Part shown: piece by piece, positions 3,993-23,346 of the stretch
How positions within the stretch are numbered: position 1 is the first letter of the stretch
How the letters are laid out: each line of letters opens with the position of its first letter
Assembly: GCA_015057085.1 (NCBI GenBank)
Contig: SVFB01000050.1
Location: 1 to 37,802, forward strand
DNA from: Lachnospiraceae bacterium
GTDB lineage: Bacteria; Bacillota; Clostridia; Lachnospirales; Lachnospiraceae
Direction of reading: 5' to 3'
Length of the DNA: 37,802 bases
Translations under genes and position numbers: made by a program
The notes under the pieces: generated by a model
Databases searched by the model: none
Told to the model about the DNA's origin: nothing
Seen by the model: only the letters and a program-made list of their open reading frames with translations

Positions 3993-5435
3993 ATGGAAGA
4001 AAACGAGTTCATGCGCTTTGCAACCGATCATGCACATGAGTTAATCCTGTTTTTTGATGAAACAGGACGGGTTTTCTATGCCAATTTGGCAGCCAATCGT
4101 TGGCTGGAGTACGGGGATCAGATGAATATCACGTCAATCGTAGATATTTTTCCATCTCTTTTCACGGTAGGTGTGGGAAAATTAACCTGCAGTGAAGAGA
4201 TGGATGGGCATGATATAGAAACAGAAGCCTATCGCAGAAATCGAACCTGCTTTAATATTTGCGTAAAGTTCGAAAAAATCGGTGATGGGATTTATTCCGC
4301 AATTGGATATGAAACCACCGAAATTGTGCAAATGCGTAAAAAAGTGCAAGAGGTGGATTTACAAATTGCAGAGGCTCTCAAGGTAAAATCCGAGTTTACG
4401 GCAAATGTTACCCATGAACTTAGGACCCCTGTTAACGGAATATCAGGAAATACACGCGAACTGCTGGAGAAAGAGACTGAGCCGGGGAAGGTGCGTCTAT
4501 TGCAGTTGATCGAGCGTGGTTGTCAGGATATGCATGCCATTATAAATAATGTATTGGATTTCTCAAAACTCGAAGCCGGTAAGTTTACTTTGGAGACAAG
4601 GGAATTTGTCTTTAGAGATATGATCGACTATGCAGTTTCAAATCATAAAAGCAAAATCAACGATAAAGGATTGGATTTCTTTATAACTGTAGCTTCGGAG
4701 ATTCCGGAGCGAGTAATCGGTGATGAGCTTCGCATTGTGCAAATTCTAAACAATCTGCTTTCAAATGCAGTGAAATTCACATCAGCAGGTAAAATTATTC
4801 TCGAAGTAGTAATGACCGCACAGGTCGACAATAGAATCGAATTGTTTTTCTTGGTAATTGATTCCGGAATCGGAATTGCCAAAGAAAATCAAGATAAATT
4901 ATTCCAAAGCTTTTCACAGGTGGATGCGTCCATAACCAGAAAATACGGTGGAACCGGATTGGGCTTAAATATCACCAAACAATTGGTAGAAATGATGGGT
5001 GGCTCGATTCATCTGGAGAGCGAATACGGAAAGGGTTCGATGTTTTCATTCCACATTTGGCTGGAGCTTCCAAAGGATGAAGTTTCAGAGGCAAAAGGTT
5101 TTGATCTGACAAGCAATGAGCAGGTCGCAAGCTATTCATTGGATGATTTTGATATTGCCAATGAAATGTGGAATTACGGATCAGAAGAAAATCGGGCTGA
5201 AATTGATAAAAAGATGCAAAAGATTATTCTATGTATCGATATGGAGAATTGGGAAAAGGCGGAAGGTTTTGCGGATGCCGTGAAGAAGATGACGGCACAG
5301 GCGCCAAAAGATGTTAAGACAGCTGCTTTAAGACTGAAGATGGCTGTTCAAAAGGAAGACCAGGAAAAGGCACGGGAGTATCATAAGACTTTGAAAGGTC
5401 TGCTAGATGAGGAGAAGGTAGGAAACGGAGTATGA
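3993..5435 (+). CDS. Soluble PAS-domain sensor histidine kinase
   Basis: Predicted cytosolic sensor kinase of 480 residues with no membrane segment. A PAS-type domain occupies roughly residues 8-120 (ELILFFDETGRVFYANLAANRWL). The HisKA dimerisation helix carries the phospho-acceptor His141 in VTHELRTPVNGI, and a complete HATPase_c domain follows: N box NNLLSNAVKFT, G1 DSGIGIA, F box SFSQVD, G2 GGTGLGLN. There is no receiver domain. The last 85 residues, after the catalytic domain, form a helical acidic and lysine-rich region (MENWEKAEGFADAVKKM) of unknown role, comparable to the tail of the kinase at 10893. Its stop overlaps the start of the next response regulator (ATGA), so that regulator is the likely phosphorylation target. 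The signal is unknown; the PAS domain implies a small ligand, redox or cofactor. Confidence 0.88.
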   Translation: MEENEFMRFATDHAHELILFFDETGRVFYANLAANRWLEYGDQMNITSIVDIFPSLFTVGVGKLTCSEEMDGHDIETEAYRRNRTCFNICVKFEKIGDGIYSAIGYETTEIVQMRKKVQEVDLQIAEALKVKSEFTANVTHELRTPVNGISGNTRELLEKETEPGKVRLLQLIERGCQDMHAIINNVLDFSKLEAGKFTLETREFVFRDMIDYAVSNHKSKINDKGLDFFITVASEIPERVIGDELRIVQILNNLLSNAVKFTSAGKIILEVVMTAQVDNRIELFFLVIDSGIGIAKENQDKLFQSFSQVDASITRKYGGTGLGLNITKQLVEMMGGSIHLESEYGKGSMFSFHIWLELPKDEVSEAKGFDLTSNEQVASYSLDDFDIANEMWNYGSEENRAEIDKKMQKIILCIDMENWEKAEGFADAVKKMTAQAPKDVKTAALRLKMAVQKEDQEKAREYHKTLKGLLDEEKVGNGV

Positions 5436-6493
5436 ATGACACAAAGACACCCCGCATCTTAATTGTAGATGATGTAGAAACCAATCGATTTGCTTTGCGG
5501 GATATTATTGCAGAGATGGGTTATCAGCCAATCTTGACGGAAAATGGGGAACAGGCGCTAAGAATCATAGAAAAATTTCAGTTTTCTCTTGTGGTTTCGG
5601 ATGTGGCAATGCCTGTTATGGATGGCTATGAATTATGCATTCAATTAAAGAAAAATCCGCACACAAGAGAAATTCCTGTTATTTTTATTTCTGCTTACGA
5701 TGATCCATCGGATGTGGTAAAGGGATTTGAAATCGGCGGAGCGGACTATATTACCAAACCATTTATTCCTGAGGTGGTAAAAGCCAGAGTTGGTGTTCAC
5801 CTAAAGGCTGCTCAGGCAGGAAAAGAATTGCAGGATTTAAATCGCAAATTGCAACATTCTGTCACAGAGCAAATGGAGCAAAATGAAAAAGAGAAAAAGA
5901 ATGTATTATATGCCTTGATTCGTGTTGCGAGAGAAAATGCGAATTATGATGAGACTCATATGGAGCGGTTGAGCAAGAACTGCAGAATATTGGCGGAAGC
6001 ATTACAGCTTTCACCGAAATTTGATAAAGAGATTTCGGATTCCTATGTGGATACAATCGAACTATCTGCGCCACTATGTGACTTGGGTAATGTTTCAATT
6101 CCATCCTCTCTTTTGCAAAAGCAGGATGCGTTGACACCGGATGAAGTGAAAGTTATGCAAAGCCACACATCACAAGGTGCTCGAATTCTGCGGGATATCG
6201 AAGGCAATGGCGAATTTAACAATTTTATCCATATGTCAAAAGAAATTGCACATTATCATCATGAAAATTATGATGGGACAGGATATCCAACCGGGAAAAA
6301 AGGAGATGAAATTCCGCTGGCAGCACAGATTGTGGCTGTCGTCGGAGAATTCTGTGCTTTAACGGAAGACAGAAGTTATCGTGAAGCTTATTCTTTGGAA
6401 GAGGCTCTTGCGATTATGGAAGTAGATGCAGAAAGCAAATTTAATCCTGATATTTATGGCATTGTGAAAAAGATTTACAGACAGTTTGTTTAG
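5432..6493 (+). CDS. Response regulator with degenerate HD-GYP output domain
   Basis: 353 residues. The N-terminal receiver (1-125) has the acidic pair DD near residues 8-9, the phospho-acceptor Asp57 in VSDVAMPVMDGYEL and the conserved Lys in YITKPF. A coiled linker (about 128-160) leads to an HD-GYP fold domain. Family enzymes of this kind hydrolyse cyclic di-GMP. The GYP signature survives (H276-H277-E278 to G284-Y285-P286), as does an earlier HMERL. However, the diagnostic HD pair reads C216-D217-L-G-N, and the later D-x-x-D metal position reads GEFCAL. Two or more metal ligands are therefore missing, and hydrolysis is doubtful; a cyclic di-GMP or protein-binding role is possible. It overlaps the upstream kinase gene by four bases, indicating translational coupling. 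Confidence 0.87.
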   Translation: MNDTKTPRILIVDDVETNRFALRDIIAEMGYQPILTENGEQALRIIEKFQFSLVVSDVAMPVMDGYELCIQLKKNPHTREIPVIFISAYDDPSDVVKGFEIGGADYITKPFIPEVVKARVGVHLKAAQAGKELQDLNRKLQHSVTEQMEQNEKEKKNVLYALIRVARENANYDETHMERLSKNCRILAEALQLSPKFDKEISDSYVDTIELSAPLCDLGNVSIPSSLLQKQDALTPDEVKVMQSHTSQGARILRDIEGNGEFNNFIHMSKEIAHYHHENYDGTGYPTGKKGDEIPLAAQIVAVVGEFCALTEDRSYREAYSLEEALAIMEVDAESKFNPDIYGIVKKIYRQFV

Positions 6494-6505
6494 AAACCTA
6501 AGAAA

Positions 6506-6533
6506 TTGCTAACAAAACCTATCAGGTTATAAA
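6506..6533 (+). promoter_or_regulatory. Candidate internal promoter for the cheY-cheA-cheW-receptor genes
   Basis: TTGCTA (6506-6511), a 16-base spacer and TATAAA (6528-6533) lie in the 75-base gap between the degenerate HD-GYP regulator and the stand-alone receiver, the widest gap inside the signalling island. A small AACCT/AGGTT inverted repeat lies within the spacer. The match is moderate, and read-through from 3926 could serve these genes instead. Confidence 0.35.
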
Positions 6534-6568
6534 TAAATGCTATATGAATTGAAAAGGAGAGATCATAT

Positions 6569-6961
6569 ATGAAGATTTTATTGGCAGAGGACGATTTTGT
6601 AACGCGAAAATTTATGACAAATTTCTTGTCAAAATACGGAGAGTGCGACGTAACTGTCGATGGTATGGAAGCGGTAGATGCTTTCATGATGGCTTTGGAG
6701 GAGGATGATCCATATGACCTTGTCTGCCTCGATATTATGATGCCGGTCATGGACGGTTATCAGGCTTTGATGGGAATTCGTAATCTGGAAAAGGAACACG
6801 GTATTTCCATGGAGGATGGCGCTAAGGTGATTATGACTACCGCTTTAAATGACGAGAAGAATGTGAAAATGGCATTTGAATTGGGATGTACAATTTATTC
6901 CGGAAAACCGATTGATCAGGAGAAATTCGAACAGGCTTTGAAAAAAATCGGCTTAATCTAG
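6569..6961 (+). CDS. Stand-alone receiver protein (CheY-like)
   Basis: Single receiver domain of 130 residues with no output domain. Visible are the acidic pocket (LAEDDFV), the phospho-acceptor Asp55 in LVCLDIMMPVMDGYQAL, the Thr pair (IMTTA) and the conserved Lys in YSGKPID. It probably accepts phosphate from CheA, encoded 13 bases downstream, and passes the signal to a partner protein or to an Hpt domain in the neighbouring hybrid kinases. The insert LEKEHGISMEDGAK lengthens the loop before strand 4, which is common in this type but unlike enteric CheY. Start ATG 6569 has AAAAGGAGA seven bases upstream. Whether it contacts a flagellar motor cannot be judged: no motor gene is in the window. 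Confidence 0.85.
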   Translation: MKILLAEDDFVTRKFMTNFLSKYGECDVTVDGMEAVDAFMMALEEDDPYDLVCLDIMMPVMDGYQALMGIRNLEKEHGISMEDGAKVIMTTALNDEKNVKMAFELGCTIYSGKPIDQEKFEQALKKIGLI

Positions 6962-6974
6962 AAAGGAGCTGTCT

Positions 6975-9047
6975 ATGGCAGAGGAGTTCAACACTGGGGA
7001 TATGCTTGATGTATACCTCTATGAGAATACGCAACTGCTAGAGAAACTTCAGGATACGGTATTGGATCAAAAGGATGCGGATGAATTCGATGAAGACAGT
7101 ATCAATGAAATCTTTCGCGCAATGCATACGATCAAAGGTTCCTCTGGAGTGATGATGTTTGATGACATTACCACGGTTGCGCACAGACTCGAGGATGTGT
7201 TCTTCTTTATCCGTGAGTCCCACCCACGTAATGTTCCGCATATGGAGTTGGTGGAACTGGTACTTGACGTGGCTGATTTTATATCCGGTGAAATGGATAA
7301 ATTATCTGACGGCGATCAGCCGGATGGAGATAGTACCGAACTGGTAAAAACCATAGAAGCATTTTTGGAGAAAATCAAAGGGGAAAGTGCGGTCAAAAAG
7401 GCGACGCCGGAAAAGAAGGATGAGGCGCCAAGAAACTTTTATATCGCTCCCGTATCATCAGGTGGAGACAATTATTTTAAAATCTATCTGACATATAACC
7501 CGGAAGTGGGATTGGCAAATATTCATGCATATAAGCTTGTATTTGCATTAAAAGAAAAAGCGGAAGATATTATGTATGCGCCGGATGACATTCTCACGAA
7601 TGAACAGAGCGCAGATGAAATCTTAAAAAACGGATTCCAAATTCTTTTGAAGACAAAGCAAACGAAGGAGGATCTTGAGCGAATCATTCAACCAGGATAT
7701 GATGTGCAAAAAGCAGATATTTATCCTTGCAGTGAGCATGATTATCAATTGGGATTTGATTCCGGAAATGATACAATCATTGAAAAGCCTAGCATTGCAC
7801 CGGGTGACTTTGTCATTGCAGATAGCAGGACACCAAGTTCGCCAAAGAAACTGGTAAAAGATAAACCAAAAAAAACAGAGAAAACACAATTTATTTCTGT
7901 CGATGTTTCAAAAATGGATCAGCTGATGGATTTGATCGGAGAGCTGGTTATTTCGGAATCGGTTGTGCTACAGAATCCGGACTTGAGAGTTCCGGGACTG
8001 GTGTTGGATAACTTTAATAAAGCCGCAGGTCAGATGACCAAAATCTCAACAGATTTGCAAAATGTCATCATGAGTATGCGCATGGTTCCTCTGACTGCAA
8101 CCTTCCAAAAGATGAATCGAATTGTCTTTGATAGCTCAAGAAAGCTGGGAAAAGAAATTGAGTTTGAAATGGTAGGGGATTCCACTGAAGTCGACAAAAA
8201 TATTATCGAACATATATCGGATCCGTTGATGCATCTGGTTCGTAATTCCGTGGATCACGGAATTGAATCGAAGGAAGAGCGCATTGCAGCAGGAAAAAAA
8301 GAAAAGGGTAAAATCACTTTATCTGCAAAAAATGAGTCCGGCAAAGTTTGGATTTCTGTCACGGATAACGGAGGCGGATTAAATCGCCAAAAGATTCTCG
8401 CAAAGGCGCGGAAGAATGGTTTGATAGAAGCAGGAAAACCGGACACTGCCTTTACGGATAAAGAGGTATATCAGTTTATTACCCTTCCGGGTTTCTCGAC
8501 AAATGAGCAGGTGACGGAGCTGTCCGGTCGAGGCGTCGGAATGGATGTTGTGGTATCGAATTTGCAAAAAGTTGGCGGGGCATTGGAAATTGACAGTGTT
8601 CCGGGCGAAGGCTCTACGATGACACTCAAGATTCCGCTCACACTTGCAATCATCGACGGAATTGTAATGGAAGTCGCAAATAGTTCATTTGTAATAGAGA
8701 CCGGCTCGGTAAAAGAGTTTGTGAGTGTCACTGAGGATATGATGATATATGAGCCGGACGGCGGGGAAAGCGTAATGATTCGGGGAAATGTTTTCCCGGT
8801 ATTACGAGTCGGCAAATGGTATCATCTAAAGGATTATGCAGAGCGTGTCGAAGATGGCATGATGGTGATTGTGGAAGTGGACAATCAAAATTTCTGCCTT
8901 TTTGTAGATCGTTTGGTTGGAAAACAGGAAATTGTTGTAAAGCCGATTCCTGACTATGTGAGAAAGGTCAAAGGCTTGACCGGATGCACACAGCTTGGTG
9001 ACGGCAGCATCGCTTTGATTTTGGATGCTGCGAACTTGATTGAGTAG
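6975..9047 (+). CDS. cheA: Chemotaxis-type histidine kinase CheA
   Basis: Cytosolic kinase of chemoreceptor arrays, 690 residues. The P1 Hpt domain carries the phospho-acceptor His51 in AMHTIKGSSGVM. A long middle part (about 145-300) contains a P2-like region that would dock response regulators, though I cannot assign it by motif. The P3 dimerisation helices run from about 312 (VDVSKMDQLMDLIGELVISES), and the P4 ATPase shows SMRMVPL, the N box HLVRNSVDHGIE, DNGGGL and GRGVGMDVV. P5, the CheW-like coupling domain, fills about 560-690 and ends in DGSIALILDAANLIE. All catalytic motifs look intact. The adjoining cheW and receptor genes complete a minimal signalling core. No CheR, CheB, CheC or CheD gene accompanies it here, so adaptation would need proteins encoded elsewhere. 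Confidence 0.94.
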   Translation: MAEEFNTGDMLDVYLYENTQLLEKLQDTVLDQKDADEFDEDSINEIFRAMHTIKGSSGVMMFDDITTVAHRLEDVFFFIRESHPRNVPHMELVELVLDVADFISGEMDKLSDGDQPDGDSTELVKTIEAFLEKIKGESAVKKATPEKKDEAPRNFYIAPVSSGGDNYFKIYLTYNPEVGLANIHAYKLVFALKEKAEDIMYAPDDILTNEQSADEILKNGFQILLKTKQTKEDLERIIQPGYDVQKADIYPCSEHDYQLGFDSGNDTIIEKPSIAPGDFVIADSRTPSSPKKLVKDKPKKTEKTQFISVDVSKMDQLMDLIGELVISESVVLQNPDLRVPGLVLDNFNKAAGQMTKISTDLQNVIMSMRMVPLTATFQKMNRIVFDSSRKLGKEIEFEMVGDSTEVDKNIIEHISDPLMHLVRNSVDHGIESKEERIAAGKKEKGKITLSAKNESGKVWISVTDNGGGLNRQKILAKARKNGLIEAGKPDTAFTDKEVYQFITLPGFSTNEQVTELSGRGVGMDVVVSNLQKVGGALEIDSVPGEGSTMTLKIPLTLAIIDGIVMEVANSSFVIETGSVKEFVSVTEDMMIYEPDGGESVMIRGNVFPVLRVGKWYHLKDYAERVEDGMMVIVEVDNQNFCLFVDRLVGKQEIVVKPIPDYVRKVKGLTGCTQLGDGSIALILDAANLIE

Positions 9048-9061
9048 GAGAGGGGAAAAGG

Positions 9062-9568
9062 ATGGACGAACTTACGACATTACAACTTACAAAGTTTGTG
9101 ACTTTTAAGTCCGGAAACGAAACCTACGGAATCAAAATCGATTATGTGAATGAAATTATCGCATATCAGGAAATCACAGAGGTTCCGGAATGTGAGGATT
9201 ACATGAAGGGACTGATTAACCTACGCGGTAAAATTGTCCCTGTAATAGATGTGAGAATACGTTTTAAGCAAGAACCAGTTCCGTATACAGACCGAACCTG
9301 CATTATTGTCATTCAATATAAGCAAAATACAGTTGGCCTGATTGTAGAAAAGATTGCGGAAGTGGTGGAATTGGCGGAAGAAAATATCATTCCGTCTCCG
9401 AGCATCGGTAAGGCGGACCATGCGCAAAACAAATATGTCTATGCCATCGGCAAAATGGGAAATGAGGTGAAACTATTGCTTGATCCCGATCGTTTGCTAA
9501 ATGATGATGATTTCATTGGCATCGAGCAGGAAGCTTTAGAACCGGCAGAAGTCGAGAAGGAGGCATAA
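9062..9568 (+). CDS. cheW: Chemotaxis coupling protein CheW
   Basis: 168-residue adaptor that links CheA (through P5) to the tip of chemoreceptors in a membrane-associated array. The CheW fold is recognisable from [23 protein letters not shown] through the signature [19 protein letters not shown] to [14 protein letters not shown] and the C-terminal strand. Residues after about 150 form an acidic tail ([20 protein letters not shown]). The gene lies 14 bases after cheA and one base before the receptor gene, whose ribosome site lies inside the cheW 3-prime end, a tight transcriptional and translational unit. Confidence 0.94.
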
Positions 9569-9569
9569 T

Positions 9570-10874
9570 ATGAAAAATGTGAGGGTTGTTACAAAATTAA
9601 TTCTTGTTTCTGTGATTACGGATATTTTTATTATCATTTCATTATTTGCCGGCTATAGAGCTGCAACAGGGGTAGTGAACGCAGAAAATCAGGCAAAGTT
9701 TTTAAGAAGTTACGGTTTTTTTACACTGGGATTTTTTATTGTAGTTGTGATTGTTTTGGCAGTCGCTAACATTTCTTTGATTCATAGCATTCGAATCGCT
9801 TTGCGCCAGTTGAATCAAGCTGCAAGACAGATGGCCCGGGGAAATGTGGATGTAGAATTAACCAAGCATGGAAATGATGAATTCGGTGAACTTACTGATT
9901 CTTTTACGGAAGTTGCTGATGTGATGAGAGCACAAGCGGATGTGGCTGCACTTGTGGCCGGCGGTAATTTGACAGTAGATGTGATTCCGCGATCCGAGGA
10001 TGATGCATTAAATATCGCATTAAAGAATATGGTATCCCGAAACAAAACAGCTTTAAGCGGAATCAGCGATGCGGCGCTTTCTGTACATACCGCAGCGACT
10101 GAAGTGGCGGGAGCCTCAGAGGCTTTGGCGCAGGGATCAACAGAGCAGGCAAGTGCGATTGAAGAAATTTCTGCATCTGTAGAAGATGTGGCTGAAAAGA
10201 CACAAAAGAATGCAAGCGAAGCAAATCATGCAACCGAGCTTGTGGAAAATGCAATCAGTCATGTCTATCAGGGCAATGACCAGATGAAAGAGATGATGGA
10301 TGCGATGGAGCAAATCAATGAGTCATCCGAGAAAATAGAAAAGATTATTAAGGTCATTGATGATATTGCTTTTCAAACCAATATTCTTGCTTTGAATGCG
10401 GCTGTGGAAGCGGCAAGAGCAGGAGAAGCAGGAAAGGGATTTGCTGTTGTGGCTGAGGAAGTCAGAAATCTGGCTGCGAAATCAGCGCAGGCTGCCAGTG
10501 AAACCGAAGAATTAATTGCAAATTCCATTGAAAAAGTAAAAAATGGTTCCGGAATTGCCGAAGAGACAGCAAAGGCGCTTGATGCAATTACAGAAGCTGT
10601 CAGCGAGAGCAAAGAGATTATTTATGAGATTAAAGAGGAATCAAATTATCAGGCCACTGCAATTGCGCAAATCAATCAAGCAATCGAGCAGGTTTCACAG
10701 GTGGTTCAGAACAATTCCGCCACTTCAGAACAATGTGCTGCTGCAAGTGTGGAATTATCGAATCAAGCCGGAAGAATGCAGGAATTACTCTCGGTTTATC
10801 GATTGGGTGAGCAAGTAAAGACGGAAGAAGCCGAACAAATCATTTCTCTGGAAGAGGATTTTGGAAAGTATTAA
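9570..10874 (+). CDS. Methyl-accepting chemotaxis-type receptor without external sensor domain
   Basis: Membrane chemoreceptor of 434 residues. Two membrane helices (about 9-28 and 50-71) flank a loop of only some 21 residues, so there is no extracytoplasmic ligand-binding domain. One HAMP domain follows (about 73-125) and a second HAMP-like segment is possible (about 130-165). A long coiled-coil signalling domain then carries the highly conserved hairpin tip ([40 protein letters not shown]), written here as a motif region near 265-310. No C-terminal CheR-docking pentapeptide is evident. The receptor may sense membrane state, an internal signal or a partner protein. It is directly encoded with cheW and cheA, so it is the likely dedicated input of that kinase. 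Confidence 0.9.
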
Positions 10875-10892: not shown

Positions 10893-13616
10893 TTGGGAAC
10901 GGATTCATTAGCAAAACAAAAAAGAAATATTGAAATCATTATTGCAATATTGATTCCATTATTTATATTGTCGGAGATGGGATATGGGATTTATCAGGAA
11001 TGGCCATCCTGGTTTGCAATGTATTGCGGATTTTCCGCATTGTTAATCTGGATTATCAGTTTCGGAAAATTTCAATCTGCGAATGTCAGAATCGTGATTA
11101 TCGCAATTTTGCAGAATATATCTGTTGTAATGTATTCCATCTTTGCAAAAGATATGTTGCTGATTCTGGTGCCTTTTGGCGCTATGGTGGTGGTTTTAGC
11201 TCTATATGCGTATCCGCCGACCATTTGGCTTTCGATTGTCACCTTGATGCTGATGACATTGATTCATGTTGCATGGGTAAATAGTATTGATTTTATGGAT
11301 TCCCAAAATGTGATGAAGCATCTTTTCGCCATCGCCAGTACGTTGGTAATCTGCATTGTCTTACATATGTGGGTGCATTTTAGAAATAACACGCAGAAGT
11401 ATATGGCGGAATTTGTGCAGGAAATGGAAAAAGCACAAAACGGAAAGGATGATTTCCTTGCAAATGTCAGCCACGAAATCAGAACACCAATCAATACAAT
11501 CTCCGGTTTGGTAGATATTATTTTAGAAGAAGATGATCCGCAAAAGACGAAGGATGAAATTGTTCATATCAGTCAGGCGGCGCGTAATCTTATGTTTGTT
11601 GTTTCTGATATCGTGGATTTCTCTGAATTGGAGCAGGGACAGATTTTTCTGGAAGAAGAAACCTATGATATCTCATCAACCATCAATGATGTGGTTGTGA
11701 TGGCATCAAGCTTGCAAAATAACCAAAAAGTAGAATTAATTGTAAATTATGCAGCTGATTTGCCGCGCGGCCTTGTGGGAGACGAGAAACGCTTGCGCCG
11801 TGCAATTATGAATATTGTCAATAACGCTTTTAAATTTACAGAAGAAGGCTGCGTTGTCATCGATATCTTTTTCCGTAAAGAATCCTATGGAATCAATTTG
11901 ATTATCTCCATTCGAGATACCGGAATCGGAATGAAGGAAGTTGAATTGGAAAATCTTTTCTCAACTTATAATCAGGCGGATGCCGGACGAACCAGAGCGG
12001 TTGGCGGAATTGGATTGGGATTAAATATTACGCGTGCAATCATCCGGAAAATGGGCGGAACGATTTCCGCATTCAGTGAATACGAAAAAGGAACTGAAAT
12101 TCGTATTACAGTGCCGCAACGAGTGGTGGACGAACGTCCAATCATTACGATCAAAAATCCGGATCAAAAAAATGTGGCCATCTATTTTAATTTGGAACAT
12201 TATGAGGGCGAAACGAGAGACGAGTATTATGCTTCTATTCTCAACATGAAAGAACAGTTAAATGTAAAAACTGTTTTTTGCAGGAATCTTGCGGAATTAA
12301 AGCGCCGTCAATCTGAAGGAAATTTGACGCATATTTTTATCAGTATTTCGGAATACAGAGAAGACAGCGAATACTTTGATAATTTATCTGCCAAGATGAA
12401 TGTCGTTGTTGTTATGGATACGAAGATGGGCATGGGACTTGAGAACAAAAAGATTCATCAAATCTTTAAACCGTTCCAGCTTATGCCGATTGCACATGCG
12501 TTAAATATCGATGTCAGAGAGCAGGAGAAAAATGCTAAGAATACATCACTCAATAAGAAATTCATTTGCCCGGGTGTGCGCGTGCTTGTGGTTGATGATA
12601 ATGAACTGAATATTCATGTGATTGCAGGTATTTTAAAGCGGTATCATATTACTGTGGAGATGGCAAACAGCGGAGCAATGGCTTTGGAAAAGATTACAAG
12701 TCAGGATTATGATTTTGTCTTTATGGACCATATGATGCCGGAAATGGATGGTGTAGAATGCCTGCATCGGATTCGCTCATTGCCGGGACATTTTTATCAT
12801 TCTGTTCCGATTGTGGCACTTACCGCAAATGCTGTTGCCGGAGCGAGAGAGATGTTAATCGGTGAAGGCTTTAATGACTTCTTAGAAAAACCGGTGGAAA
12901 TTTCAGTTTTGGAACGTATGTTAAGGCGTGTATTGCCGCCGCAGAAATTTGTGGAAGAATCAGAGCCTGAAGATACTACCGAAAGCAAAACAGAAACTCA
13001 AGAACAAAATATTATTTCAGACGGAAATTACACTTATGAAAGTCTAAATCGTGAGAGTGGTTATGTATATTGCGGAGGAGAGGAATCCTATCGTGATATT
13101 CTTTCGATTTATGCAAACAAAGGGGAAAAGAATTATGAACCTCTTCAAGCTTTTTTTGACCAGGAGGATTGGAATAATTATATTATCACAATTCATGGTG
13201 TGAAAAGCTCCATGAAATCCATAGGGGCAGATGAACTTTCGGAACTTGCAAGACGCTTGGAAATGGCAGGAAAAGATGGGGACTTTGATTATATCAGAGC
13301 CAATCATGCGAAGGTATATGACATGTTAAAGTCGTTGATCCTTGACCTGATGAAACATTTCCAGGTGGCACAAGAGGAAGAACATGATATCTCGAATCTG
13401 CCTGAATTGTCGAAAGAAACTTTTGAAGAAATTAAGCGCAATCTGGAAAATGCTGCTTTTGAATTGGACGGAGACAAGATGCTCGACGCCTTGAAAATTG
13501 CCAGAGGAACCAGATATGGCAAAACAGAAATGGATAAAGTGATTGCTGAAATGGAAAAGAAAATTTCGATGCTTGACTTTATTCCTGCTATGGAATTGGT
13601 AATGAAATTGAAATAA
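10893..13616 (+). CDS. Membrane hybrid histidine kinase (HK, pseudo-receiver, receiver, Hpt)
   Basis: 907-residue phosphorelay protein. About five or six membrane helices occupy residues 12-165 with little external sequence. HisKA carries His194 (VSHEIRTPINTISG), and HATPase_c follows with NIVNNAFKFT, DTGIGM and GGIGLGLN. Residues about 423-550 look like a receiver that has lost its acceptor (IFISISEY where the Asp would be). A true receiver then has Asp612 in FMDHMMPEMDG, and an Hpt domain carries His768 in IHGVKSSMKS. A helical tail of about 70 residues ends the protein. It is therefore a self-contained His-Asp-His relay. The start is taken as TTG 10893, with AGAGG seven bases upstream; the next ATG (10978) would delete the first membrane helix. 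The gene begins 18 bases after the receptor gene. Confidence 0.87.
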   Translation: MGTDSLAKQKRNIEIIIAILIPLFILSEMGYGIYQEWPSWFAMYCGFSALLIWIISFGKFQSANVRIVIIAILQNISVVMYSIFAKDMLLILVPFGAMVVVLALYAYPPTIWLSIVTLMLMTLIHVAWVNSIDFMDSQNVMKHLFAIASTLVICIVLHMWVHFRNNTQKYMAEFVQEMEKAQNGKDDFLANVSHEIRTPINTISGLVDIILEEDDPQKTKDEIVHISQAARNLMFVVSDIVDFSELEQGQIFLEEETYDISSTINDVVVMASSLQNNQKVELIVNYAADLPRGLVGDEKRLRRAIMNIVNNAFKFTEEGCVVIDIFFRKESYGINLIISIRDTGIGMKEVELENLFSTYNQADAGRTRAVGGIGLGLNITRAIIRKMGGTISAFSEYEKGTEIRITVPQRVVDERPIITIKNPDQKNVAIYFNLEHYEGETRDEYYASILNMKEQLNVKTVFCRNLAELKRRQSEGNLTHIFISISEYREDSEYFDNLSAKMNVVVVMDTKMGMGLENKKIHQIFKPFQLMPIAHALNIDVREQEKNAKNTSLNKKFICPGVRVLVVDDNELNIHVIAGILKRYHITVEMANSGAMALEKITSQDYDFVFMDHMMPEMDGVECLHRIRSLPGHFYHSVPIVALTANAVAGAREMLIGEGFNDFLEKPVEISVLERMLRRVLPPQKFVEESEPEDTTESKTETQEQNIISDGNYTYESLNRESGYVYCGGEESYRDILSIYANKGEKNYEPLQAFFDQEDWNNYIITIHGVKSSMKSIGADELSELARRLEMAGKDGDFDYIRANHAKVYDMLKSLILDLMKHFQVAQEEEHDISNLPELSKETFEEIKRNLENAAFELDGDKMLDALKIARGTRYGKTEMDKVIAEMEKKISMLDFIPAMELVMKLK

Positions 13617-13630
13617 TTAAGGAATCGTTT

Positions 13631-16321
13631 ATGATACGGATAATCAATAATATCAAAGAAAAAATTTATAAGAACGATTGGCAAGCTTGGAAAGATGCTT
13701 CGATTAAGCAAAGACTGTTTTATGTCATTGTCGTAATTGCAACCGGGTTATGTCTGGTGAATTCCATCGAAACGTTTTTGATTACAGATAGTTTTGCATT
13801 GAGTGTCTTTATGATTGCAACACTGATTGTGGTTGTCCTTGGTATGTGGCTTAGCCTGATCAAAAGGAAAATCAAGATTGCTTCGTTTTTGATTTTTGTG
13901 GTTTTAAATCTGGTGGTTTATCCATGTGTTTTCTACATGGAAGGCGGCATGCAAAGCGGTTCTGTTATGTGGTTTTTGTTGGGCTACTTCTATGTGTTTT
14001 TAATGTTCGACGGGGCATTGTTTTGGATTTGCTTGATTGCAACCATTGGCTGTGATATTTTCGTTTATGTCCATGCATATTTACATCCAGGTTTTGTAAA
14101 GCCGCCGCTGAGTCGTTTTACAGGAACCTTTGATTCTATCTTTAGTTTGATTATCATCGGAATTTTCGTGGGTATCTTATTGCGCGTGCAAATGCATCTG
14201 TATGATGAAGCGAGAAAATTGGCAGAGCATCGTGCGGAGGAACTCGAAAAAAATGCGCGCTCGCGCAACAATCTGTTTGCAGGCATGAGTCACGAGATTC
14301 GCACACCGATTAATACCATAATGGGATTAAACGAATTGATTATGCGTTCGGATGCGGATGAAACAATCAAGGAATATTCAAATGATATCGATAGTGCTAC
14401 GAGAATGTTGCTTTCTCTGGTGAATGATATTTTGGATTTTTCTAAAATCGAGATTAATAAGCTTGAAATCATACCAATGGAATACAGCTCTAAGTCAATG
14501 TTTCAAAAGCTGTATGACATGATTTTGATTCAGGCATCAAAGAAGAATCTGCAGTTGAAAATGAATATCGATACGCTTTTCCCGTCTGTGCTTTATGGAG
14601 ATGAAAAGCGATTGATACAGGTCGTGTTAAATCTTTTAAATAATGCAGTAAAATATACGGATAGTGGAACCATCACATTGGAGGCAACAGGAGATAAGGA
14701 TGATGATGGCACTTATCAAATGCGTATTTCTGTGGCAGATACCGGAATCGGTATCAAGAAAGAAGATATTTCAAGAATTTATGATTCTTTCCAGCGCGTA
14801 GATGAGCGCAATAATACATGGATTGAAGGTAGCGGACTTGGGCTTTCCATTGTGAAGCAGTTAGTAGAGCTGATGGGAGGAACCGTAAAGGTAGACAGTA
14901 TTTATCGAAAAGGCTCTGTATTTACAGTGACCATTCCGCAAAAAATTGTGGAACATACACCGGTGGGGTTGATTGTGTTCGGTACAGATGAGGAACGCAA
15001 GAAATATCAATATCATCAAAAATTCGAAGCGCCGGAAGCGCGTGTCTTAATTGTAGATGATAACCGAATGAATACCATCGTAACCAGTAGATTGCTTGCC
15101 GCAACCAGAATGCAGATTTATTCTGTGGGAAGTGGAAAGGAATGTTTGGAAATTACAAAGCAAAAGTTTTTCCATGTGATTTTGATGGACTATATGATGA
15201 CCGAAATGAACGGAATTGAAACCATGAAGGAAATCAGAAAACAGGAAAACGGATTGTGCAAAAATACGCCGATTATCGCATTGACAGCTGCCAGCAAAGA
15301 GGAGGCGGAAGCAGCTGATGTGGAAGTGGGATTTGATGCGTATTTAGAGAAGCCTGTGCGTTCGGAGCAGTTAGAGGGCGAAATTTTAAATTTGCTTCCA
15401 AAAGAAATTGTTTCCTATCGTCAGGATAAAAATATATACAGCGAGAACGGCGAAAGTAATTCCGGAGTATTGCGCAGAAAAAGAAAGGTTCGTATCACCA
15501 CAGACTGTATTGCGGATTTGCCGAAGGAATTATTGGAAAAGTATGATATTCATGTGCAGAATCTTTATATTCGTACGGAAAAGGGAAGATTCTTAGATTC
15601 TGTGGAAATTGATTCTGATAATATGTCCCAATATATTACGGCAGAAGATGTATATACGGACAGTTGCTCCGTTGAAGAATTCGAGAATTTCTTTGCAGAC
15701 AATCTAACGGATGCAGTGGATATCATCCACATTTCCATGGCAAGCAATACAGGTACCACATATTCCCGTGCCGTGGAAGCTGCAAAGGGATTTGATTATG
15801 TACATGTATATGATTCCGGACATATTTCTGTTGGCGAGGGCTTGCTTGTAGTGGAAGCGGCAAGACTTGCAAGTTTTGGGAAGAGCGTGGAAGAAGTCAT
15901 TGCTGCATTAGATGAGTACCGTCCGAAAATCGATTCGGGATTTCTGGTGGAAGGTGCCGAGATGTTGAGCCGTCAAGGTTATACCAATCGCGGTTTGGTA
16001 AAGATTACAAATGTTTTAAAACTTCATCCTGTTTTGCGTATGCGTCACAGAAGTGTCTTTGTGGATGGATTTTTGACAGGTGAAAAGGAAAATCTGTGGA
16101 GAAAATATGTGGGATTGCGTTTGCGCAAAGAACGTCAAATCAGCCAGCGTGTCGTGATGATTTCATTTGCAGGATGCACCTCGAACCAACGTAAGGTGGT
16201 ATTGGATGAAGTGGAAAAGCGGATTCCTTTTGAAAATATCATTGTATGCAAAAGCTGCTTTTCAAACGCATTGGCAAGTGGTGCAGGAACATTTGGAATT
16301 GCATTTTTTGAAAAAGATTAA
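13631..16321 (+). CDS. Membrane hybrid histidine kinase-receiver fused to a DegV/FakB-type domain
   Basis: 896 residues in one uninterrupted frame. Residues about 27-195 form roughly six membrane helices. A short coil leads to HisKA with His221 (MSHEIRTPINTIMG), a complete HATPase_c domain (LLNNAVKYT, DTGIGI, GSGLGLS) and a receiver with Asp520 in LMDYMMTEMNG. From about residue 618 to the end is a full-length DegV domain: TTDCIADLP (family TDSxxDLP), SMASNTGTTY (family S-x-SGT), VYDSGHISVGEGLLVVEAARLA, and the closing GAGTFGIAFF. DegV/FakB proteins hold one fatty acid and present it to a kinase. The His usually found before the last Gly-rich turn (H-x-GPG) is absent here (LASGAG), so ligand handling may differ. 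AAGGAA gives the start. The gene closes the signalling island and ends at a strong terminator. Confidence 0.9.
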   Translation: MIRIINNIKEKIYKNDWQAWKDASIKQRLFYVIVVIATGLCLVNSIETFLITDSFALSVFMIATLIVVVLGMWLSLIKRKIKIASFLIFVVLNLVVYPCVFYMEGGMQSGSVMWFLLGYFYVFLMFDGALFWICLIATIGCDIFVYVHAYLHPGFVKPPLSRFTGTFDSIFSLIIIGIFVGILLRVQMHLYDEARKLAEHRAEELEKNARSRNNLFAGMSHEIRTPINTIMGLNELIMRSDADETIKEYSNDIDSATRMLLSLVNDILDFSKIEINKLEIIPMEYSSKSMFQKLYDMILIQASKKNLQLKMNIDTLFPSVLYGDEKRLIQVVLNLLNNAVKYTDSGTITLEATGDKDDDGTYQMRISVADTGIGIKKEDISRIYDSFQRVDERNNTWIEGSGLGLSIVKQLVELMGGTVKVDSIYRKGSVFTVTIPQKIVEHTPVGLIVFGTDEERKKYQYHQKFEAPEARVLIVDDNRMNTIVTSRLLAATRMQIYSVGSGKECLEITKQKFFHVILMDYMMTEMNGIETMKEIRKQENGLCKNTPIIALTAASKEEAEAADVEVGFDAYLEKPVRSEQLEGEILNLLPKEIVSYRQDKNIYSENGESNSGVLRRKRKVRITTDCIADLPKELLEKYDIHVQNLYIRTEKGRFLDSVEIDSDNMSQYITAEDVYTDSCSVEEFENFFADNLTDAVDIIHISMASNTGTTYSRAVEAAKGFDYVHVYDSGHISVGEGLLVVEAARLASFGKSVEEVIAALDEYRPKIDSGFLVEGAEMLSRQGYTNRGLVKITNVLKLHPVLRMRHRSVFVDGFLTGEKENLWRKYVGLRLRKERQISQRVVMISFAGCTSNQRKVVLDEVEKRIPFENIIVCKSCFSNALASGAGTFGIAFFEKD

Positions 16322-16338: not shown

Positions 16339-16370
16339 AAATCCTTCTCCATCAGGAGAAGGATTTTTTT
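16339..16370. terminator. Bidirectional intrinsic terminator
   Basis: AAATCCTTCTCC (16339-16350), loop ATCA, then GGAGAAGGATTT and further T. The 12-base perfect stem has a T-run on the plus strand and an A-run (16332-16340) that becomes a U-run on the minus strand. It lies between the stop of the DegV fusion and the stop of the convergent DtxR-family gene, so it serves both. Confidence 0.92.
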
Positions 16371-16743
16371 AGTCGATATTGTTTGAATGTAAAAACTTCT
16401 TTAATGCAATGAAGGTTTCTGCGCTGATTACATGTTCGATGCGACATGCATCATCTTCAGCAATTTGAGGATCCACACCGATATGCTCGAAGAAGCGTGT
16501 AATCAAAGTATGTCTTTCATAAATACGGTCAGCAATTTCTTTTCCGGAATCGGTTAAATAGATAAAACCGGCATCTGTGACAGTGATATGATTTTTTTCT
16601 CTTAAATTCTTCATCGCGATACTGACGGATGATTTTTTGAAGCCTAATTCATTTGCTACATCTACGGAACGAACTACCGGTAAACGTTGGCTTAAAATTA
16701 ATATTGTCTCCAGATAGTTCTCAGCAGATTCATTTGTTTGCAT
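16369..16743 (-). CDS. DtxR/MntR-family metal-dependent transcriptional regulator
   Basis: 124-residue DNA-binding regulator. A winged helix-turn-helix (about residues 4-62: AENYLETILILSQRLPVVRSVDVANELGFKKSSVS, read as a region) is followed by the metal-binding dimerisation domain with TLITRFF and EDDACRIEHVIS, whose Glu and His are classic ligands. There is no C-terminal SH3-like domain, so it has the short MntR-like architecture. The family responds to Mn(II) or Fe(II); which metal cannot be told here. I place the start at the ATG complementing 16741-16743, because GGAGGA lies at 16751-16756; an upstream in-frame TTG at 16758 would overlap that site. It is transcribed away from the ABC exporter genes. 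No convincing family operator palindrome is seen between them. Confidence 0.88.
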   Translation of the reverse strand: MQTNESAENYLETILILSQRLPVVRSVDVANELGFKKSSVSIAMKNLREKNHITVTDAGFIYLTDSGKEIADRIYERHTLITRFFEHIGVDPQIAEDDACRIEHVISAETFIALKKFLHSNNID

Positions 16744-16892
16744 TGTACATTCCTCCAAGTCTATAAGAATTTGTACCCCGTTTTTTCTCTCCCAGATTTA
16801 GTATATTCTATCATAACAACAATGAATTTTAAAGGGTTTTTTGACAGTTCAACCGGTAATGCTCTATACTGATGTAATGATTTGGAGGTTTT
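16744..16892. promoter_or_regulatory. Divergent promoter region between the DtxR-family gene and the ABC exporter
   Basis: On the plus strand TTGACA (16841-16846, perfect) and TATACT (16865-16870) are 18 bases apart, a strong sigma-A candidate for the ABC genes; GGAGG at 16884-16888 serves the first one. On the minus strand TATACT (16800-16805, complement) is a possible -10 box for the regulator, with no good -35. The region is AT-rich and has no long palindrome resembling known DtxR or MntR boxes. Confidence 0.6.
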
Positions 16893-21991: not shown

Positions 21992-22020
21992 TTGATTTAT
22001 AGCCACATTTATAGTATATT
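21992..22020 (+). promoter_or_regulatory. plsX promoter
   Basis: TTGATT (21992-21997) and TATATT (22015-22020) are exactly 17 bases apart, directly after the S66-like stop codon. The expected start point is near 22027, leaving a short leader with AAAGGGAGG (22036-22044). It probably drives plsX-acpP, with partial read-through into rnc-smc-ftsY. Confidence 0.6.
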
Positions 22021-22051
22021 TTCTTGTAGATGTGTAAAGGGAGGTATGATA

Positions 22052-23074
22052 ATGCCAGAAGCAATCAGAGTTTGTATAGATGCAATGGGCGGAGATAACG
22101 CACCTGCAGCACCTGTGCAAGGAGCCGTTGATGCGGTAAAACTTCGCAACGATATTAAAGTGGTTCTTGTGGGTCAGGAAGATGTGATTCAAGCAGAACT
22201 TTCAAAATATGAATATCCTTCAGAGCAGATCGAAATAGTGAATGCGACTGAAATCATAGAAATGGCTGAGCATCCTGTGAATGCAATTCGCACCAAAAAG
22301 GATTCCTCTATGGTAGTGGGAATGAAAATGGTACGTGATCGTCAGGCAGATGCCTTTATTTCAGCAGGAAGTTCCGGAGCTATTTTAGTTGGTGGCCAGA
22401 CCATTGTAGGACGTATTAAAGGTGTTAAGAGACCACCTTTGGCACCGTTAATTCCAACAGAGAATGGTGTATCACTTTTAATTGACTGCGGAGCCAATGT
22501 GGATGCGAGACCGGAGCATCTTGTGACATTTGCAAAGATGGGATCTATTTATATGGAACACATCGTTGGAATCAAGAATCCACGTGTCGCAATTGTAAAT
22601 ATTGGAACGGAAGAGGAAAAGGGAAACAACCTTGTAAAAGAAACCTATCCGATGTTAAAGGAATGCGATACCATTAATTTTGTAGGAAGTATTGAATCAC
22701 GTGAGATTCCGCATGGTGGCGCAGATGTGATTGTCTGTGAGGCTTTTACAGGAAATGTGATTTTGAAATTATATGAAGGTTTAAGCCAGACTTTGATTTC
22801 TGTGATTAAAGGTGGCTTGATGAGTACCTTAAAGTCAAAGATTGGTGCAGCGCTTGCATTGCCTGCTTTAAAGAAAACAATCAAATCATTTGATGCATCA
22901 ACCTATGGCGGTGCACCGCTTTTGGGATTGAATGGGCTTGTGGTTAAGACCCATGGCAATTCAAAGAATACAGAGATCAAGAATGCAATTTTCCAGTGCA
23001 TTTCATTCTCTGAAAATCGCATCAATGAAAAAATCAAAGAGCAACTTGCTGTTGAATCTTCAACAGAAGAATAA
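22052..23074 (+). CDS. plsX: Phosphate acyltransferase PlsX
   Basis: Peripheral membrane enzyme that reversibly turns acyl-ACP and phosphate into acyl-phosphate, the acyl donor for PlsY in phospholipid synthesis; in Firmicutes it also receives acyl groups from the FakAB fatty-acid kinase route. 340 residues, the usual size. Diagnostic segments are the N-terminal VCIDAMGGDNAP, SAGSSGAILVGG, LIDCGANVDARPEHL and CEAFTGNVILKLYEG. Start ATG 22052 follows AAAGGGAGG at seven bases; an ATG at 22046 is too close to that site. acpP, its substrate carrier, follows after 32 bases. Confidence 0.95.
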   Translation: MPEAIRVCIDAMGGDNAPAAPVQGAVDAVKLRNDIKVVLVGQEDVIQAELSKYEYPSEQIEIVNATEIIEMAEHPVNAIRTKKDSSMVVGMKMVRDRQADAFISAGSSGAILVGGQTIVGRIKGVKRPPLAPLIPTENGVSLLIDCGANVDARPEHLVTFAKMGSIYMEHIVGIKNPRVAIVNIGTEEEKGNNLVKETYPMLKECDTINFVGSIESREIPHGGADVIVCEAFTGNVILKLYEGLSQTLISVIKGGLMSTLKSKIGAALALPALKKTIKSFDASTYGGAPLLGLNGLVVKTHGNSKNTEIKNAIFQCISFSENRINEKIKEQLAVESSTEE

Positions 23075-23106: not shown

Positions 23107-23346
23107 ATGGAATTAGAAAAATTAAAGAAAATCATTGCGGATACAATGAACACTGACGAGAATGAAATTACAACCGACACTACTTTCACAGATGATCTTG
23201 GAGCTGACTCTTTAGACGTATTCCAGATTATCATGGGAATTGAAGAGGAATTCGGTATCGAAATTCCAAACGAAGAAGCAGAGAAGATTTCCACTGTCGG
23301 GGATGCTGTTGAAGCCATCAAGACTGCAGTTGATGCGAAGAATTAA
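23107..23346 (+). CDS. acpP: Acyl carrier protein
   Basis: 79-residue acidic carrier for growing and finished acyl chains. Ser35 in DDLGADSLDVFQ is the site for the 4-prime-phosphopantetheine arm. The four-helix pattern and the closing GDAVEAIKTAVD match the family. It supplies acyl-ACP to PlsX encoded just upstream. AGAGAGG stands six bases before ATG 23107. A terminator-like hairpin follows 26 bases after the stop, which would let acpP be made in large excess over rnc and smc. Confidence 0.97.
   Translation: MELEKLKKIIADTMNTDENEITTDTTFTDDLGADSLDVFQIIMGIEEEFGIEIPNEEAEKISTVGDAVEAIKTAVDAKN

Follow-up and report, generated by a model that had tools for sequence, protein, structure and literature searches.

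A 37,802-nucleotide stretch of Lachnospiraceae DNA (contig SVFB01000050.1 of assembly GCA_015057085.1; its full length is called the window below) encodes a hybrid histidine kinase (HK) that ends in a complete DegV/FakB-type domain (13631..16321, plus strand). The functional unit is a two-gene operon formed by this DegV kinase and a second hybrid kinase directly upstream, and is larger than the single gene of the preliminary description. Because this FakB-type carrier domain is built into a recurring kinase pair and has lost residues required for the carrier role, its reuse as a switch is suggested, perhaps one that reads lipids.

Domain architecture of the kinase pair

The DegV kinase was identified from the open reading frame (ORF) listing and Pfam as a single uninterrupted frame with an ATG start (896 aa). 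A hydropathy scan shows about six hydrophobic segments at residues 25-188 (13703..14194), in agreement with the multi-helix anchor described before, and no hydrophobic segment past residue 210. The anchor is followed by HisKA (residues 212-274, 14264..14452, 65.8 bits), HATPase_c (residues 323-438, 14597..14944, 98.2 bits) and a receiver (REC; Response_reg, residues 472-582, 15044..15376, 79.7 bits), all on the plus strand. With the phospho-acceptor His221 in HisKA and Asp520 in the receiver, both correctly numbered in the preliminary description, this one frame holds all parts of a hybrid histidine kinase. The C-terminal part (residues 619-894, 15485..16312, plus strand) matches PF02645 over profile positions 1-279 of 280 (125.3 bits, E 3.8e-36, Pfam cut-off 27) and TIGR00762 with 133 bits (cut-off 99.7), a whole-domain match that places it in the DegV/FakB family. 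It also shows similarity to 21 distinct solved DegV/FakB-type chains (E up to 0.001). The domain is full, as had been stated; counted from the first strand it comprises 276 residues, not about 279.

The upstream partner (10893..13616, plus strand, 907 aa) was annotated by Pfam, hydropathy and a position check as a transmembrane (TM) protein with HisKA (His194), HATPase, REC (Asp612) and Hpt (His768). Its Hpt domain (13098..13280, plus strand, Pfam) is the sole one of the pair, and the gene ends 14 bp before that of the DegV kinase.

The kinase-receiver-DegV fusion is genuine: the frame is intact and the same architecture is found in dozens of relatives. An ortholog from another genome of the window's genus (L042) has an identical domain architecture, with sequence identities to the window protein of 79.0% for REC, 66.5% for DegV, 64.9% for HK and 40.4% for the anchor.

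Kinase-linked DegV domains and the two-kinase operon

A total of 397 genomes of the same family was searched with an alignment of the three kinase-linked DegV domains of the window's genome, with at most six candidates scored per genome. Many of the matches listed lie in long frames; 100 regions high on this list were examined together with the window, and their domains were assigned with profiles built in this analysis; the counts below describe that selection. It contains 103 DegV-bearing ORFs from 72 genomes, 69 of them with a fusion. Including the genomes of loci L319 and L321, kinase-linked DegV is present in at least 74 of the 397 sampled genomes. The predominant architecture is HK-REC-DEGV (70 ORFs), followed by HK-REC-DEGV-HPT (18), DEGV alone (5), DEGV-HPT (3) and HK-DEGV (3), and by one case each of DEGV-HK-REC, DEGV-HK-REC-HPT, DEGV-HK-HPT and a contig-cut REC-DEGV. 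The count includes ORFs cut by contig ends, and the broken gene L071 enters it as two pieces. Most HK domains (88 of 94) have the phospho-acceptor His, the remainder being one Asn and five gaps (three in the HK-DEGV subtype, two in cut or broken genes), and nearly all receivers (90 of 91, one cut) have the Asp. DegV precedes the membrane anchor in L049, L078 and L131 and stands beside Hpt without a kinase in L040, L044 and L099, a varied placement as for a movable regulatory module. In L078, one frame of 1578 aa joins DegV, dCache, HK, REC and Hpt.

An ORF with HK, REC or Hpt lies directly upstream of 92 of the 103 DegV ORFs. The other 11 are located at contig ends, belong to the HK-DEGV subtype (three) or have neighbors 311 and 614 bases away (two). 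The 92 pairs comprise 59 of HK-REC-HPT with HK-REC-DEGV, 17 of HK-REC with HK-REC-DEGV-HPT and 16 minor or cut types, and the intergenic gap is between -40 and +40 bases in 85 of them (median -1). A single Hpt per pair, on either partner, is near-universal: 87 pairs have one, five have none and no pair has two. The five pairs without Hpt are L049 (DegV gene open at the contig end), L052 (a tandem second DegV kinase), L061 (a split HK-REC / DegV behind HK-REC-HPT), L062 (a bare receiver ORF near a contig end) and L071 (the broken gene). At L052, two tandem HK-REC-DegV genes stand behind one HK-REC-HPT.

A second set was drawn from titled genome records (named set: 80 loci, the best 80 of more than 575 candidates near one query, which cover one part of the family). 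Here, 78 of 83 DegV ORFs are HK-REC-DEGV, and 72 of these directly follow HK-REC-HPT, five are partnerless within 200 bases and one follows a short Hpt ORF. Among the titles are labels of Lachnospiraceae and Oscillospiraceae as well as the names Schaedlerella arabinosiphila, Mediterraneibacter agrestimuris and Anaerotruncus colihominis. The named bearers are gut commensals that live among free fatty acids. In wider samples, bounded by score and again with at most six candidates per genome, frames longer than 700 aa were found among the matches listed in three genomes of the phylum sample (398 genomes, E<=1e-45), all from the same family, and in nine genomes of the class sample (391 genomes, E<=1e-60), six from the same family and three from one other family.

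Signature sites of the FakB carriers

The bound carboxylate in FakB1 is described as part of a network, Thr62-Ser95-Ser171-His270-carboxylate (PMC8892158). Catalysis by FakA is reported to require Arg173 of FakB1, and binding to FakA and to the membrane to require Arg205 (PMC9136124). Sites T61, S93, R170, R202 and H266 of FakB2 were scored here (chain 4x9x, chain number minus 20) and are given below in this order as five-letter codes. Judging from the motifs, we take them to be the counterparts of the FakB1 residues. Four solved chains read TSRRH.

In the alignment to FakB2, four of the five sites are changed in the window domain: T61 is kept, and S93, R170, R202 and H266 are replaced by Gly, Tyr, Thr and Ala. 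The carboxylate network of Thr, Ser and His reads T, G, A; the FakA-catalysis Arg is Tyr and the FakA/membrane-docking Arg is Thr. The preliminary description had pointed out that the usual His before the last glycine turn is missing; this holds, FakB2 His266 being aligned with Ala, as one of several changes.

The same sites were compared between linked domains and those called unlinked, which are neither fused to a kinase nor encoded directly behind a kinase gene. Members of the linked set, and likewise of the unlinked set, are related to each other and their counts are not independent draws. Among the 103 linked domains, site 61 is S in 71, T in 15 and another residue in 17; site 93 is S in 64, G in 22, T in 4 and another residue in 13, and 67 domains have a hydroxyl at both sites. 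Site 170 is R in 44, K in 13 and another residue in 46. At site 202, F, I, M, V or L is found in 74 domains, R in 2 and another residue in 27, and at site 266, N in 93, H in 2 (one of them from the tandem locus L052) and another residue or a gap in 8. The 46 unlinked domains have T (44) or S (2) at site 61, S (43) or T (3) at site 93, R at site 170 (46), R (45) or K (1) at site 202 and H (45) or Y (1) at site 266. Since Arg202 is lost from the linked domains and their His266 is mostly Asn, and both residues are retained in 44 of 46 unlinked ones, the linked DegV domain is very probably regulatory and does not serve FakA as a carrier or substrate.

Unlinked domains with signaling neighbors read TSRRH (L328, a receiver-bearing gene 24 bases upstream) and TTRRH (L322, a receiver-bearing gene 827 bases upstream); L324 and L330, each with a kinase gene about 2.9 kb away, are both TSRRH. 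Twenty high-scoring places outside the family (not strictly the top 20) contain 22 DegV ORFs, of which 20 are TSRRH, one SSRRH and one TTRRH. Linked domains also share a near-invariant motif, T-x-x-G-x-F-x-D (window residues 649-656; T 96, G 92, F 99 and D 100 of 101). Its T and G are absent from the six unlinked DegV domains of the window's genome, and the motif is derived.

Phylogeny and origin of the linked domains

A maximum-likelihood tree was calculated from 53 linked and 52 unlinked DegV domains (105 in all), without the long-branched L006. A branch with support 100/100, present in 100% of 200 bootstrap trees, separates all linked domains from the unlinked ones. A quick tree that includes L006 agrees on this split.

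Free DegV genes are located directly behind HK-REC-HPT in four loci (L110, L115, L134, L319), all with Asn266 and without Arg202. L110, L115 and L134 branch outside the set of the other 50 linked domains (support 97/98); L319 is not in the tree. Given this position of the free operon DegV, the simplest order of events is that a carrier gene was captured into a kinase operon and subsequently fused, as if co-operation of DegV with the kinase had preceded the fusion. The free DegV of L061 is found inside the set of 50 and looks like a later split of a fused gene. In L134, HK-REC-HPT, the free DegV and a REC-GGDEF regulator are encoded in a row.

Other DegV proteins of the window's genome

Three of the nine DegV matches in the window's genome (2.79 Mb in 128 contigs) are kinase-linked and six are stand-alone. 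The second linked system is a DegV-Hpt protein whose gene overlaps the upstream HK-REC gene by 8 bases (L007, L040). The third is a kinase-like protein that ends in DegV and has neither a phospho-acceptor His nor a recognised receiver (L008, L041). For the six stand-alone genes, no kinase, receiver or Hpt match was found within 1.5 kb on either side. Their sites are TSRRH (three), TSRKH, TTRRH and, in the outlier L006, SSRRY. Since a FakA candidate is also present, along with five stand-alone DegV proteins with carrier-type sites, the carrier role appears to be covered elsewhere in this genome.

The His-less HK-DEGV gene belongs to a conserved operon of pseudokinase-DegV, dCache protein and HAMP-GGDEF protein (positions 1041-6699 of L041, from contig C38 of this genome; L043; L045). 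In all three genomes the same two genes come next, one for the dCache protein (48 and 54% identity) and one for the HAMP-GGDEF protein (57 and 61%); the GGDEF motif is intact in the protein of the window's genome. As this subtype keeps DegV in a conserved GGDEF operon with neither His nor receiver, DegV can matter without a phosphorelay.

Gene neighborhood

In the window, the kinase pair is preceded on the plus strand by a HisKA-HATPase kinase with no hydrophobic segment in its first 130 residues (3993..5435), a response regulator with an HD_5 domain of the HD-GYP type (5432..6493) and a single CheY-like receiver (6569..6961), all by domain match, and by cheA (6975..9047), cheW (9062..9568) and a methyl-accepting chemotaxis protein (MCP) with HAMP (9570..10874), all by Pfam. 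The GYP motif of the regulator is present (HHENYDGTGYP). By eye, CD stands in place of the HD dyad, which makes phosphodiesterase activity doubtful. The cluster of kinase, HD-type response regulator, receivers, CheA (63-69% identical), CheW, MCP and kinase pair is conserved in L188, L189, L191 and L206, and in L170, from the window's genus, it is kept without cheA, cheW and MCP. In five genera, that of the window among them (window 3993-10874), the chemotaxis array is joined to the kinase, the gene of the HD-type regulator and the pair with the DegV kinase. The genome is probably motile, with six flagellin matches, and has further CheW-bearing genes, two adjoining on contig C60 and one on C24.

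A response regulator is the usual upstream neighbor of the pair, and its type varies by clade. In 40 wider regions, 37 have a same-strand gene upstream of the pair; at any distance, receivers are found in 25 (a few being kinases), HD_5 in 13, GGDEF in 6 and MCP in 4. Directly upstream of 39 complete pairs (<=400 bases), a response regulator is encoded in 23 (HD-GYP 13, bare receiver 6, other receiver protein 4), a kinase in 3, another gene in 10 and none in 3. The corresponding numbers for 72 pairs of the named set are 67 response regulators (bare receiver 63, HD-GYP 3, other receiver protein 1), another gene in 4 and none in 1. Downstream of the pair, no family is common to 33 same-strand neighbors, which include 6 receivers and 3 sodium:alanine symporters; among the 25 families listed of 62, no other occurs more than once.

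The preliminary description had also noted plsX and acpP about 6 kb away as a loose contextual link. The proximity is correct (plsX, 21992-23074, about 5.7 kb downstream of the DegV kinase; acpP, named by eye, 23107-23346, about 6.8 kb downstream). The two genes belong to the ordinary chromosomal order plsX-acpP-rnc-smc-ftsY (smc and SRP-GTPase/ftsY by domain match, acpP and rnc by eye) and lie past an opposite-strand gene (16369-16758), two ABC-transporter genes and one LD-carboxypeptidase gene. They were rejected as functional context and add nothing to the interpretation.

Proposed mechanism and alternative explanations

The reading that we favor, to which we give about an even chance, is a conserved two-kinase phosphorelay with one Hpt and with one FakB-derived DegV domain as a ligand-occupied input module. 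The kinase anchors would keep the DegV domain close to the cytoplasmic side of the membrane. In most of the family, its pocket would be occupied by an acyl chain from the inner leaflet; in the window's subclade the occupying ligand, if any, is possibly another one. Occupancy by a hydrophobic ligand would change the shape of DegV and shift the kinase/phosphatase balance of the pair, which in turn would alter how phosphate passes from the receiver through the one Hpt and on to a distinct response regulator. Depending on the clade, this regulator is a lone receiver or has an HD-GYP or GGDEF domain besides its receiver. Because some of these regulators carry HD-GYP or GGDEF, motility or cyclic di-GMP is proposed as a likely output.

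The architecture, the operon, the near-universal single Hpt, the one clade of linked domains, the loss of Arg202 and the change of His266 mostly to Asn are read from the sequences; ligand binding, the direction of signaling and the identity of the output are what we infer here. A role as input is preferred because DegV moves within the architecture, persists without the phosphotransfer parts and seemingly adjoined the kinase before the fusion. A lipid is proposed as ligand on account of descent and of the polar sites conserved in most members, an argument that is weakest for the window; lipid sensing is our best guess for the family. The suggestion of the preliminary description that DegV gates a phosphorelay by acyl occupancy survives in spirit as a regulatory role, with the carrier residues lost. 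Its other suggestion, that phosphorylation controls lipid hand-over, is disfavored: most of the residues for hand-over to FakA have been lost, and DegV is present in one subtype that has no phospho-acceptor His and no recognised receiver. A broader and more tentative proposal is that the carrier was captured once by a two-kinase, one-Hpt relay in gut Clostridia and became a dedicated intracellular lipid receptor that links the state of membrane lipids to response regulators, including some that act on cyclic di-GMP; in the window's subclade, the link would extend to the chemotaxis array. It would have diversified in ligand, position and partner, including the pseudokinase with a diguanylate cyclase.

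Several observations weigh against the favored reading. DegV is mostly located behind the receiver, where one-protein systems place output domains, and the hydrophobic residue at site 202 may signify a protein interface and not membrane contact. The window's own HD-GYP regulator is without the His of the HD dyad, and a cyclic di-GMP output is not general, since a bare receiver is the upstream regulator in 63 of 72 named-set pairs. On the tree (46 rows), the Hpt side changes five times for the upstream gene and four times for the downstream gene, few independent events; of 5 contrasts, about 3 are opposite and 0 in the same direction, and the sign test is not significant. Hpt placement was on these grounds rejected as a statistically independent rule, and the one-Hpt-per-pair pattern is consistent, not statistically proven. 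Finally, 13 domains that belong to the window's subclade or resemble it were compared (seven from the window's set with 100/98 support, six chosen by a similar C-terminal motif). Site 61 is A in 7, S in 3, T in 1 (the window), M in 1 and G in 1, and site 93 is G in 12 and R in 1, so a hydroxyl is present in 4 of 13 at the former and in 0 of 13 at the latter; site 266 is N in 11 and A in 2 (window, L042). With the pocket hydroxyls largely gone, acyl occupancy is less certain in this subclade than in the rest of the family.

The alternative that survives best, which we consider somewhat unlikely, is that the DegV fold serves as a ligand-free adaptor for protein-protein contacts and keeps the two kinases or the response regulator assembled, lipid binding having been lost at least in the window's subclade. 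The loss of the carrier residues from nearly all linked members, and of most pocket hydroxyls from the subclade, would fit such an adaptor, as would a possible interface at the hydrophobic site 202 and the regular pairing of two kinases. It fits less well with the 67 of 103 domains that have a hydroxyl at both pocket sites and the 93 of 103 that share the same Asn at the His site; because conservation around the old carboxylate site is coordinated, a dead pocket is unlikely.

DegV could also be the output, with receiver phosphorylation controlling its binding or release of lipid and the pair regulating fatty acid trafficking. In favor of this explanation, DegV lies behind REC, where output domains are found, in the majority of the ORFs (70 HK-REC-DEGV and 18 HK-REC-DEGV-HPT of 103). 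We regard it as improbable: the docking Arg is lost in 101 of 103 domains and the catalytic Arg in 59 of 103, which makes hand-over to FakA unlikely, DegV is also found N-terminal, free, beside Hpt and in the subtype without His or REC, and the Hpt suggests that the relay continues to another protein. A membrane-tethered FakB-like carrier that still feeds FakA would agree with a DegV domain that is complete by profile and with the fakA candidate of the genome, and is very improbable given that Arg202 and His266 are each found in 2 of 103 linked domains and that the window has Y, T and A at sites 170, 202 and 266. A sequencing or assembly artefact, the first of which the preliminary description had named as a possible refutation, or a functionless chance fusion was rejected with near certainty, as no supporting point was found and the same architecture recurs in many separate assemblies, in a conserved operon and in one clade.

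Relation to known systems and biological meaning

The window protein shares the complete PF02645/TIGR00762 domain with the FakB/DegV carriers such as FakB1 and FakB2 of S. aureus. The linked domains differ from these carriers in being fused to or adjoining hybrid kinases and in the replacement of Arg202 and His266 in nearly all members; the window domain additionally is without the S93 and R170 equivalents. RpfC of Xanthomonas has the domain order TM-HK-REC-Hpt and RpfG is REC-HD-GYP. The same domain orders are found in the window at 10893-13616 and 5432-6493, a likeness of parts and not a membership: the Rpf system has one kinase and belongs to a different phylum, and the window system has two kinases and DegV. 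In the window system no sign of a diffusible fatty acid signal was seen, no search aimed at an RpfF-type synthase having been made. RpfC is reported to be a membrane histidine kinase that is allosterically activated by a fatty acid, sensed via a 22-residue N-terminal region and not by a soluble lipid-binding domain (PMC5391125). Fatty acids also affect kinase signaling in S. aureus, where SaeS signaling is reported to be inhibited by the fatty acids that accumulate without fatty acid kinase (Fak) (PMC5539427). Hybrid kinases of the BarA/TorS/ArcB type share the HisKA-HATPase-REC order and rank high in the NCBIfam comparison of the two window kinases, each time with a score well below the cut-off; the window system differs from them by two kinases with one Hpt between them and by the DegV domain. 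In the literature on DegV/FakB with kinases, receivers or Hpt, no DegV-kinase fusion is described among the matches listed, judged by title and start of abstract, a scope outside which most subscription papers lie. PMC3146951 deals with a different link.

If the DegV domain senses lipids, it would be a soluble, dissectable lipid receptor that is wired straight to a histidine kinase, and the way in which bacteria read free fatty acids at the membrane would become testable with purified parts. Even a ligand-free domain would represent a metabolic carrier that was captured by a signaling system, with the free-adjacent and the fused states still visible among relatives, and the system follows an unusual rule, one Hpt between two neighboring kinases.

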